This document shows, piece by piece, positions 27,403-32,635 of a DNA stretch of 38,810 nucleotides (the first letter of the stretch is position 1; the number at the start of each line of letters is the position of its first letter). The stretch lies in the NCBI GenBank assembly GCA_937923465.1, contig CALDUB010000016.1:1-38810 (forward strand), read 5' to 3'. Origin of the DNA: an uncultured Saprospiraceae bacterium. Its GTDB lineage: Bacteria; Bacteroidota; Bacteroidia; Chitinophagales; Saprospiraceae. The position numbers and the translations under genes are program-made. Below the pieces are notes generated by a model. The model did not search any database and was not told where the DNA came from. It saw only the letters and a list, made by a program, of their open reading frames with translations.

Positions 27403-27514
27403 ACTTTGCAGTTTTCTCGGTGCGTAAAAATTTAGCTCGGCGGTAAGATAATTATCTTCTTATCAAGATGTTGGCAAAGTGAAGTGTGAAAATCCCGAAT
27501 GGAGCTTTGCATTT

Positions 27515-27522
27515 TACCTTTG
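27515..27522 (+). promoter_or_regulatory. Putative internal -7 element TACCTTTG upstream of rplL
   Basis: Exact TAnnTTTG match in the rplJ-rplL gap; no well-spaced TTG found. Confidence 0.4.
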
Positions 27523-27560
27523 ACAATATATAATCAATCATGGCTTCCAAGTTACAACGC

Positions 27561-27581
27561 ACCAATTAATAATTAATTGGT
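27561..27581. repeat. Perfect 21-nt dyad 22 nt upstream of rplL start
   Basis: ACCAATTAAT-A-ATTAATTGGT. Confidence 0.95.
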
Positions 27582-27603
27582 AATATTTTAAAATCATTTT
27601 CAA

Positions 27604-27978
27604 ATGGCAGATTTAAGTGCATTAGCAGAACAACTCGTAAACCTTACAGTAAAAGACGTAAGTGAGTTGGCAACCATCCTCAAAGACGAGTACGGTATCG
27701 AACCAGCAGCAGCAGCAGTAGCAGTAGCAGGCCCAGGTGGCGCAGGCGGCGGCGAAGCAGCAGCTCAAACTGAATTCGATGTAATTCTCGAATCTGCGGG
27801 TGCAGCTAAGTTGAAAGTCGTAAAAGAAGTCAAAGACCTTATGGGTGTAGGCTTGAAAGAAGCGAAAGGACTTGTTGACGACGCTCCAACGACGTTGAAA
27901 ACAGGTATTCCTATGGCAGATGCAGAAGCTATCAAAACTGCTTTAGAGGCAGTAGGTGCTTCAGTTGAAATCAAGTAA
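27604..27978 (+). CDS. rplL: 50S ribosomal protein L7/L12
   Basis: Ala/Gly hinge and [46 protein letters not shown]. Confidence 0.98.
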
Positions 27979-28050
27979 GCTTCTTTGGACGACTGAAAGA
28001 CTGACCGAAGATTTATTCTTCATACAGTTTTTCTGCTTTCTAAGAGATAC

Positions 28051-28087
28051 GGTCGGAAAGTCTTCGGATTTTCCGACCAATTCTTAC
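28051..28087 (+). terminator. Strong UUCG-tetraloop terminator after rplL
   Basis: GGTCGGAAAGTC-TTCG-GATTTTCCGACC, 12-bp stem with one GU, then AATTCTTAC. Confidence 0.75.
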
Positions 28088-28212
28088 TTTTGAGCAAGTA
28101 AAATGAAATTTTTAATACCAAAACTGGTTGATAAACTTAATTTTTATGTGCTCCCTTCGCTAAATTTGTTTGTTTTAAACAAACTTATGACACGAAGATT
28201 CTACTGATTTTG

Positions 28213-28220
28213 TACCTTTG
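28213..28220 (+). promoter_or_regulatory. Putative -7 element TACCTTTG for rpoBC
   Basis: Exact TAnnTTTG match downstream of the rplL terminator and ~600 nt upstream of rpoB. Confidence 0.5.
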
Positions 28221-28281
28221 CCTTCTATTTAAAAAATGGATATAGAAAAATTATTCGTAATAAGTTGATTATCAGGCTCTA

Positions 28282-28316
28282 AGGCTTAGATAGATGTACC
28301 ACATCCTTCTAAGCCT
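28282..28316 (+). promoter_or_regulatory. Two-tier hairpin in rpoB 5' leader
   Basis: AGGCTTAGA-TA-GATGT-ACC-ACATC-CT-TCTAAGCCT: 9 bp + symmetric 2x2 internal loop + 5 bp. Confidence 0.85.
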
Positions 28317-28816
28317 ATCGTTGTTTATAGACTTTTTTAGTTTGAAAATGAACTTTTAGGAAGATTTGAATGTATTCATACTCGTGGCTTTGTGAAAAAA
28401 GTTACGAGAAAGGAAATATCTTTGATAAGTAGACGATTATGGAAAGAAATACATCTAATTTTAGTGTATTTTGGGAAGTATAGAGGAGAATTAGATATTT
28501 TCGTCAGACAAATATTTGAAAAAATAATTGGATTAGTAAAGACTTTTTTGATTTTTTTCAAAAATAAATTTGTTAGGTCGATTAGATGACGTGATAATTG
28601 TCTGAAAATGAAGGTTTTAAAAGGATAAAGCAGCAGCGATTTTTTTAATCGCTCACAGCGAAAAGAAAACGCGTATCAAACGCGACAGCATATATCGGAC
28701 ACTGTCCGAACCCACGGAAGACAAAATAAAGAGCGATCATTTATTTAATGGTCAATCATCAAATGTCCACCGTACTATAGAAATAAGAGTAGCTAACAAT
28801 ATAACCGGAATTGCAC

Positions 28817-31800
28817 ATGACCAATACAGGTATAGTGAGAGCTGAAGAGCGTAGAGTAAACTTCGGCAAGATTAAACTCTCAGGAGTTGACCCGGACTTA
28901 TTGGAAATTCAACTACAGTCTTTCCAAGAGTTTTTCCAATTGGAAACCACGCCTGAAAACCGCGGTAACGAGGGTTTATTTCGCGTTTTCCAAGAAAACT
29001 TTCCCATTACGGATGCCCGTAATATCTTCGTTCTTGAGTTTTTAGATTATTTCATCGACCCCCCACGCTACACCATTCCAGAGTGTATGCAACGTGGATT
29101 GACTTACAGCGTGCCCTTAAAAGCAAAGCTTCGTTTGTCATGTAATGATGAAGAGCACGTAGATTTCGAAACTATCGTACAGGATGTTTTCTTAGGAAAC
29201 ATCCCATACATGACCCCAAAAGGGACATTCGTAATCAATGGTGCTGAGCGTGTTATTGTTTCTCAGTTACACCGTTCTCCTGGTGTATTCTTTGGACAAT
29301 CTTTCCACCCGAACGGTACTAAGATTTATTCTGCCCGTGTCATTCCTTTTAAAGGTGCATGGATGGAGTTCGCGACTGACATTAATACTGTCATGTACGC
29401 ATACATTGACCGTAAGAAAAAATTTCCTGTAACTACATTGTTACGTGCGATTGGTTTCGATACGGATAAAGCCATTTTGAACATATTCGACTTGGCAGAT
29501 GAAGTAGAAACGAATGAAGAAGGCTTGAAAAATGCTGTTGGTCGTAAATTGGCTGCACGTGTATTAAAGTCTTGGAATGAGGATTTTGTAGATGAGGATA
29601 CAGGTGAGGTAGTAACAATCGAGCGTAACGAGATTATCTTGGAGCGTGACATCGTTTTAGATGAAGACAATATTAGCTTGATTAGAGAAGCTGGTGTTGA
29701 AAACATCATCCTTCAACGTGAAGATGTAGATGATGACTACTCTATCATTTACAATACATTACAAAAAGACCCGTCTTCGTCTGAAATCGAAGCGGTGAAC
29801 TATATCTACCGCCAGTTGCGTGGTACTGAGCCACCAGATGATGAAACAGCTCGTGGTATCATTGATAAACTATTCTTCTCTGACAAACGCTATAACTTAG
29901 GTGAAGTTGGACGTTACAAAATCAACCGTAAATTGGGAGGAGAAATCCCAATGGATACGCAGGTTTTGACGAAAGAAGATATTATCGAAATCGTTAAATA
30001 CTTAGTACGTTTGATGAATCAACGTGCAGAGATTGATGATATTGATCACTTAAGTAACCGTCGTGTCCGTACAGTAGGAGAGCAGCTATATGCTCAGTTT
30101 GGGGTAGGTTTGGCACGTATGGCACGTACTATTCGTGAGCGTATGAATGTACGTGACAACGAGGTATTTACACCGATTGATTTGATTAACGCAAGGACTT
30201 TGTCTTCAGTTATCAACTCTTTCTTTGGTACGTCACAGTTATCACAGTTCCTTGACCAGACAAATCCTTTATCTGAAATCACTCACAAGCGTCGTATTTC
30301 GGCACTTGGACCTGGTGGTTTGAGTCGGGAGCGTGCAGGTTTTGAGGTACGTGATGTTCACTATTCTCACTACGGTCGTTTATGTACGATTGAAACGCCA
30401 GAGGGACCGAATATCGGTTTGATTTCGACACTTTGTGTATTGGCGAAGGTGAACAAAATGGGTTTCTTGGAAACACCTTATCGTAAGGTAACTAACGGTA
30501 AAGTGGATTACGATGTAATGCCAGAATACCTTTCTGCAGAAGGAGAGGATTACATGAAAATTGCACAGGCAAATGCAGGTTTGGATGAAGCAGGAGCTTT
30601 TACCACTGACCGTATTAAGTCTCGTGAGCATGGCGATTTTCCTGTATTAACAGGTGAAGAAGTTGAATATATGGATGTTGCACCTAACCAGATTGTTGGG
30701 GTGTCGGCATCTTTGATTCCATTCCTTGAGAATGATGATGCCAACCGTGCCCTTATGGGCTCTAACATGCAGCGTCAAGCAGTACCTTTGTTGAAACCAG
30801 CTTCACCGATTGTCGGTACAGGTTTGGAAGGCAAGGTAGCGCGTGATAGTCGTATGTTGATTAACGCGGAAGGTGACGGAGTTGTTGAATATGTAGATGC
30901 GAATGAAATCGTTATCCGTTACGACCGTAGCGAGGAAGATTCTTTAGTTAGCTTTGAAGATGCACGTAAGACTTATACATTAATTAAGTTCCGTCGTACA
31001 AATCAAGGTACTAATATCAACTTGAAACCAATCGTACGTAAAGGTGACCGTGTAAGTAAAGGTCAAATCCTTTGTGACGGTTATGCAACTGAGAAAGGAG
31101 AATTAGCATTAGGTCAAAACTTGAAAGTGGCATTTATGCCATGGAAAGGTTATAACTATGAGGATGCAATTGTACTTTCTGAGCGTGTAGTTCGTGAAGA
31201 TATTTTCACTTCTCTCCACATCGAACACTTCGAAATTGACGTGCGCGATACTAAGTTGGGTGAAGAGGAATTGACAAATGATATTCCTAATGTATCGGAA
31301 GATGCAACGCGCGATTTGGATGAGCACGGTGTTATCCGTGTTGGTGCATGGGTGAAAGAAGGAGACATCATCATTGGTAAGATTACGCCGAAAGGGGAGT
31401 CTGACCCGACACCAGAGGAGAAATTGCTTCGTGCAATCTTTGGTGATAAAGCAGGTGATGTAAAAGATGCTTCACTAAAAGCACCACCTTCTACTAAAGG
31501 TATCATCATCAATAAGCAACTTTTCGCTCGTGCGAAGAAAGATAAAGAGCAGAAAGAAAGCGAGAAATTGTTGCTACAGAAGTTGGATGACCAACACGCT
31601 ATCAGCTTGAATGAGTTGAAAACGATTTTGGTAGATAAGTTGGCTGTTTTGGTGAAAGGCAAGACGAGTGAAGGCGTTAAGTCTGTTTACTCTGAAATGT
31701 TGATACCAAAAGGTACAAAATTCAACCAAGAGGTACTACGTGAATTGGAATATGCTTCTGTCGATTATAGCAATTGGACGGATGAGTTACCGACTAATAA

Positions 31801-32635
31801 GTTGATTGCTCAGTTGTTACACAACTACAGCATTAAAGTTAACGAGGAAGTAGGTAAGTACAAGCGTGAGAAATTCAACATCAGCATTGGTGATGAGTTA
31901 CCAGCAGGTGTATTGAAATTGGCAAAAGTTTACATGGCTAAAAAGCGTAAGCTGAAAGTGGGTGATAAACTTGCCGGTCGTCACGGTAACAAAGGTATCG
32001 TTTCGCGTATTGTACGTACGGAAGATATGCCATTCTTAGAAGATGGAACAGCAGTGGATATCGTATTGAATCCATTAGGTGTACCTTCTCGTATGAACTT
32101 GGGACAAATCTTCGAGACAGTATTAGGTTGGGCAGGTGAAAAATTGGGTGTCAAGTTTGCCACTCCAATCTTTGACGGTGCGAGCCAAGACGAAATCGAA
32201 GAGTATATCCAGAAGGTAAACTTACCGAGTTTGGGTCAAACTTATCTATATGACGGTGAGACGGGTGACCGTTTCCACCAGCAGGCAACAGTAGGTGTGA
32301 TTTACATGCTGAAATTGTCGCACATGGTAGATGATAAGATGCACTCTCGTTCTATCGGACCATATTCACTTATTACACAACAACCATTGGGTGGTAAAGC
32401 CCAGTTTGGTGGTCAGCGTTTTGGTGAAATGGAGGTTTGGGCATTGGAGGCATTCGGTGCTGCTAATATCTTGCAAGAGCTATTGACGCTTAAGTCGGAT
32501 GATATTCAGGGTCGTGCGAAAGCTTATGAAGCTATCGTAAAAGGTGATACTTTACCTGAACCGAATATTCCAGAGTCATTCAATGTACTTGTACATGAAT
32601 TGCGTGGATTAGCCTTGGACGTGAAGTTCGAGTAG
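28817..32635 (+). CDS. rpoB: DNA-directed RNA polymerase subunit beta
   Basis: Full-length beta; [61 protein letters not shown] at 28817 preferred over TTG at 28811. Confidence 0.99.

Follow-up and report, generated by a model that had tools for sequence, protein, structure and literature searches.

The pyrBI operon of Escherichia coli is controlled by a leader-peptide attenuator that acts by ribosome occlusion; a short ORF ends at the foot of the hairpin, and no antiterminator is needed. In the same bacterium, an attenuator has been described at the rplL–rpoB junction (PMC4670729), and RNA processing at this junction is indicated by the title of Barry et al. (1980), which is cited in PMC5371410. 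Lacto-rpoB RNA (RF01709), a structured RNA of Lactobacillales that is named for rpoB, has been proposed to be cis-regulatory (PMC2864571), and for Flavobacterium psychrophilum, leader-peptide attenuation has been reported ahead of operons for amino acids (PMC9723704). Our literature search, with subscription papers mostly outside its reach, found nothing on the rplL–rpoB junction in Bacteroidota, and the balance between RNA polymerase and ribosomes seems to be little studied in this phylum in the literature found.

We analyzed this junction in the window, a 38,810-nt stretch of DNA from an uncultured Saprospiraceae bacterium whose rpoB has its best named matches in this family, and in related genomes. 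A hairpin is located between rplL and rpoB here as well, and we liken it by its position to the attenuator of E. coli, where a hairpin at the junction decouples the two gene pairs from each other; the Saprospiraceae element differs in having a nearly fixed stem base, a paired tail that is not a clean U-run, and a frequent leader ORF. With pyrBI-type attenuators, it shares a short ORF that ends at the hairpin foot with no need for an antiterminator, but it has no clean U-run, its targets would be RNA polymerase genes, and the peptide sequence is free. Lacto-rpoB RNA resembles it as a structured RNA with an rpoB name, but belongs to Lactobacillales, and the Rfam covariance models (Lacto-rpoB, S15-Flavobacteria, and others) gave no match at the gathering score for the element or the leader, so that the Rfam search of the leader suggested in the initial annotation came back empty. 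Judged by its sequence, the element is a variant of the E. coli, Lacto-rpoB, and leader-peptide kinds that is new in its anatomy. The family-wide occurrence of the element and the leader ORF at one junction, which encodes parts of both the polymerase and the ribosome, makes the balance between the two testable.

Layout of the rplL–rpoB gap

The gap between rplL and rpoB comprises 838 nt in the window and 810 nt in the sister species, compared to 130–470 nt in most other Saprospiraceae. The sister species is the sole same-genus genome that was found, and the conservation of the gap was judged by alignment with it. The start of rpoB is most likely the ATG at 28817; an in-frame TTG is also present at 28811.

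Table 1. Features of the rplL–rpoB region and their positions in the window.
Feature	Position	Strand	Basis
rplL (ribosomal protein L7/L12), upstream gene	27604..27978	+	ORF list and translation
Terminator-like hairpin after rplL, GGTCGG..CCGACC	28051..28078	+	Terminator scan, fold z −4.8, sister alignment
TACCTTTG, candidate −7 box of a Bacteroidota promoter	28213..28220	+	TAnnTTTG match; no −33 box
10-codon leader ORF, MDIEKLFVIS	28236..28268	+	ATG 28236, TGA 28268; position class enriched in family
Conserved two-tier element of the rplL–rpoB gap	28265..28334	+	Covariance model R1 match, E = 1.8e-13
Upper stem of the element, AGGCTTAGATAGATGT..ACATCCTTCTAAGCCT	28282..28316	+	Fold and covariation
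26-nt block, sister-identical, with palindrome CAAATATTTG	28503..28528	+	Sister alignment
Three later hairpins	28635–28653, 28695–28709, 28735–28753	+	Absent or changed in sister; fold z −2.9 to −4.9
rpoB	28817..32635	+	Most likely start at ATG 28817

All features listed in the initial annotation were recovered at their positions (the box at 28213–28220, the mini-ORF, the two-tier hairpin, the hairpins at 28635 and 28735, and the dyad near 28695–28709). The annotation had viewed the leader, whose length of about 590 nt follows from a start near 28226 and the rpoB ATG, as one structured unit that may control rpoBC. A 624-nt stretch folds better than its shuffles (z = −6.0). In the alignment with the sister, the blocks at about 28050–28080, 28190–28335, and 28500–28560 and the start of rpoB are conserved, and much of the remainder is 20–55% identical. 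The block 28190–28335, which comprises the −7 box, the mini-ORF, and the two-tier hairpin, is mostly 60–95% identical, compared to 30–57% in its flanks, and identity drops to 30–40% over 28340–28500. The three later hairpins, which had been regarded as further parts of the leader, do fold, yet they are not conserved in the sister. We therefore rejected the long leader as a unit, as conservation is limited to a hairpin of about 70 nt and the mini-ORF region; what stood of the proposed leader-RNA control of rpoBC is a covarying element between rplL and rpoB beside a short leader ORF.

In the window genus, the terminator-like hairpin at 28051–28078 is followed by the −7 box and then by the conserved element. 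This hairpin is present in the sister too, with a longer loop. It has a short lower stem of its own and occupies the place where other Saprospiraceae carry the conserved element, of which it may represent another copy that has diverged. The block at 28503–28528 reads GTCAGACAAATATTTGAAAAAATAAT, with a 10-nt palindrome inside; the surrounding stretch is otherwise diverged from the sister, and the block was absent from the other fetched loci.

At the site of the candidate −7 box, the sister has TACTTTCG, which deviates from TAnnTTTG by one mismatch. No −33 box TTTG was found at the proper spacing from TACCTTTG at 28213; in Flavobacterium johnsoniae, the −33 box could not be identified (PMC7366714). 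The motif TAnnTTTG is common in the window (60 occurrences compared to 47 expected). In the 261 kb of the own genome that the promoter and terminator counts cover, TAC[CT]TTTG was found before ORFs 11 times in sense and 3 times in antisense orientation. A promoter at 28213–28220 with a start near 28226 is plausible. The rplJ–rplL gap (27403–27603, about 200 nt) contains TACCTTTG at 27515 and TTTGCA-N17-TATAAT at 27506, and rplL may have its own promoter in this gap.

A covarying two-tier hairpin between rplL and rpoB

The two-tier hairpin at 28282–28316 is a covarying RNA element, much beyond chance. The covariance model matched 116 of 150 Saprospiraceae genomes, which counts in favor of the explanation preferred below, and in every match that was checked, the element was located between rplL and rpoB. 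Its seven bottom pairs (GGCTTAG/CTAAGCC) and its tail (TATYGYYGTNT) are nearly fixed, and the upper stem and the loop are free. With 38 sequences, 10 of the 15 upper stem pairs were changed on both sides, and 92% of the cells paired, compared to 75% in shuffles; with 51 further genomes found by the model, pairing was 93.5% versus 80% and covariation 0.481 versus 0.201. The lower stem pairs the tail with the 18 nt preceding the upper stem. In 108 gaps, the upstream sequence was better fitted by its own tail than by the tails of other sequences (z = −8.3, 0/20000), and the lower stem covaried also among 82 gaps of less than 70% identity (z = −6.6). The absence of covarying helices from relatives had been named beforehand as a finding that would speak against a leader RNA, and both the upper and the lower stem covary. 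In the window, however, the lower stem ranks only 35 of 38, which counts against the explanation preferred below. The comparison establishes, at the level of sequence, the conserved element with both stems and its fixed place.

Usually, the element lies about 65 nt downstream of rplL. In four genomes, it is only 24–25 nt upstream of rpoB, so that the polymerase must pass it, and in at least five lineages, including that of the window, a separate strong hairpin or terminator lies between rplL and the element, which is nevertheless kept. The position near rpoB and the retention behind other hairpins or terminators point to an element that serves rpoBC rather than merely ending rplL. As the own genome has a single strong copy, a mobile or repeated element was rejected. 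A DNA operator formed by the inverted repeat GGCTTAG/CTAAGCC is unlikely, because the half-site spacing varies and the intervening bases covary as a stem.

Short leader ORFs upstream of the hairpin

In the sister, the counterpart of the leader ORF is also open (MNIDNFSVTS). All six codons that differ between the two are replacements, and the mini-ORF of the window alone would be dismissed for this reason. Chance-like in one genome, the leader ORF is recognizable by its position and frame across many. In a first set, an ATG-initiated ORF of 5–30 codons that ends at most 30 nt from the stem was present in 23 of 56 gaps, compared to 8.1 in dinucleotide shuffles, and a second set gave such ORFs in 17 of 52 other gaps (7.2 expected). 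Combined, 40 of 108 gaps had a leader ORF, with 15.9 expected (z = 7.7), and the z values of 13 control triplets were at most 2.9. When the gaps were thinned at 70% identity, by which relatedness among them was controlled only in part, 29 leader ORFs remained, compared to 10.7 expected. The 70% threshold was adopted because clustering at 62% identity or below left 6–16 gaps, too few for the test, given that even upstream DNA without any relation reaches 55% identity.

About 40% of the family have an ATG 30–50 nt before the stem and an in-frame stop 5–19 nt before it. The latter range contains 90% of the leader-ORF stops (45% in shuffles), and the ATG density has its maximum 40–49 nt upstream of the stem. 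For 61 ATGs of this region, early stops were found 3 times in their own frame but 17 times in each other frame (Fisher p = 0.00015). Lower stems were somewhat stronger in members with a leader ORF (Mann–Whitney p = 0.02). The position and frame of the leader ORF are thus established by the comparison, and the mini-ORF that the initial annotation gave for a possible 10-codon leader peptide belongs to this enriched class of ORFs, albeit with a peptide sequence that is not itself conserved.

The window, like about 40% of the family, has a short ORF just upstream of the hairpin, as is expected for a leader-peptide attenuator; the lack of peptide conservation and of the ORF in about 60% of the members count against the explanation preferred below. 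By eye, none of the listed leader peptides showed the repeated codons for a single regulated amino acid that mark the trp type. We infer that the selected feature is a ribosome that terminates at the hairpin foot and not the peptide.

Relation to terminators and attenuators

The stem of the element is G+C-rich, as in intrinsic terminators. In 61 of 108 genomes, the longest T run of the tail is at most 2, and the lack of a clean U-run counts against the explanation preferred below. Two ordinary terminators of the own genome (L133, L134) share the GGCTT..AAGCC stem base, which is followed by TTTTTT or TTTTCTT. Whereas own-genome terminators have this U-run, the element has a conserved, interrupted tail that is predicted to pair upstream, and by this anatomy it is no ordinary terminator.

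No partner for an alternative antiterminator pairing was found for either hairpin arm, which counts against the explanation preferred below; a trp-type switch is therefore not supported, and a riboswitch-like alternative fold was rejected for the same reason. Occlusion of the pyrBI type remains compatible with the absence of an antiterminator. Where the lower stem of a relative is good, the helix length would fit the roughly two turns of an RNase III processing signal, which would be cut in the stem. The fixed stem base suggests recognition by something and would be left unexplained by simple attenuation.

A possible coupling of rpoBC expression to translation

Tentatively, and with somewhat less than even confidence, we favor the view that the element, as a leaky attenuator or as a processing hairpin, holds rpoBC expression below that of rplJL, and that in part of the family the leader ORF allows a ribosome to occlude the lower stem. 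The polymerase would leave rplL or, in the window genus, perhaps begin at a start of its own near 28226; the emerging transcript would fold into the two-tier hairpin, and a fraction of the transcripts would be ended or cut there, so that less rpoBC than rplJL would be made. In many members, including the window, a leader ORF of 6–15 codons ends inside or just before the predicted 5′ strand of the lower stem, and a ribosome terminating on it would cover this strand, hinder the hairpin, and favor read-through. RNA polymerase synthesis would then follow translation capacity. What we infer is that transcripts are ended at a leaky site or cleaved there, in which direction this acts, and that ribosomes occlude the stem. 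Occlusion is least certain in the window, given the weakness of the lower stem there. As the element and the leader ORF both recur across the family, they probably help to set the amount of RNA polymerase. That a ribosome finishing an ORF of arbitrary sequence blocks the hairpin foot in much of the family, and so ties RNA polymerase synthesis directly to translation capacity, is rather doubtful.

The two-tier helix with its internal loop and interrupted U-run would also suit a hairpin that is mainly an RNase III-type processing site and that separates the rplJL and rpoBC messages without any termination or regulation, for which E. coli offers a precedent at this junction, again by the title of Barry et al. 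(1980) in PMC5371410. This is rather unlikely, as the nearly fixed stem base and tail and the leader ORF would be left unexplained. Alternatively, a protein could bind the element and control its own synthesis in this way, such as subunits of RNA polymerase or a ribosomal protein encoded in the operon. Seven nearly invariant pairs and a fixed tail, next to an upper stem that covaries freely, would agree with such autogenous control, as would the retention of the element in rpoBC leaders far from rplL. However, neither a known ligand motif nor a match to an Rfam leader was found, the stem sequence differs in other Bacteroidota, and the loop is not conserved, which makes such a site quite unlikely. 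We regard it as very unlikely that the element is a decayed old rplL terminator that plays no role in the control of an rpoBC unit with its own promoter: the stem base common to two ordinary own-genome terminators and the usual place about 65 nt after rplL would fit, but decay would not keep the tail bases and a covarying lower stem, and the element persists in lineages where rplL is already followed by a different hairpin or terminator and in some cases lies 24–25 nt before rpoB.

Even with a real element, the leader ORF could go untranslated and be a by-product of constraints that act on the sequence of the lower stem and the upstream DNA, in line with its presence in only about 40% of the members, the unconserved peptide, and the six replacements among six changed codons in the window genus. 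As the enrichment is specific for ATG (z = 7.7, compared to at most 2.9 for the 13 control triplets) and for its own frame, and as the signal first seen in 56 gaps was repeated in 52 others, we consider a by-product unlikely.

The junction in other lineages

In other families of the order, the element match was mostly lost, or a weak match was found elsewhere. Most other Bacteroidota have a strong hairpin with a different stem sequence at the rplL–rpoB junction, often with a U-run after it, and these equivalent hairpins, several with U-runs, count in favor of the explanation preferred above. In several other loci, no rplL was found in the 3 kb that precede rpoB. Four inspected gaps of the Chitinophagaceae type (L074, L083, L091, L098) have, in place of the element, a plain terminator that follows rplL and a TAnnTTTG box ahead of rpoB.

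In part of the family (e.g., L006, L010, L014, L163), TTGAACTTTTT is located downstream of the element, with TATTAT about 20 nt further on. TTGAAC occurred downstream of the element in 13 of 56 gaps (1.8 expected), and the TTGAAC..TAT motif after the hairpin in 8 of 56 (0.35 expected). This recurrence of TTGAACTTTTT..TATTAT is possibly a promoter or another element; as a second promoter, the TTGAAC..TAT pattern was not found upstream of ORFs in 261 kb of the own genome.

One locus of another genus (L235) has a layout like that of the window, with a strong terminator, TACCTTTA, the leader ORF MINLFSVTLS, and the element 9 nt later, and its peptide resembles MNIDNFSVTS of the sister. In another locus (L021), a second short stem, GGCTTAG-TCT-CTAAGTC, lies inside the leader ORF upstream of the element, and this could possibly be another duplicated arm.
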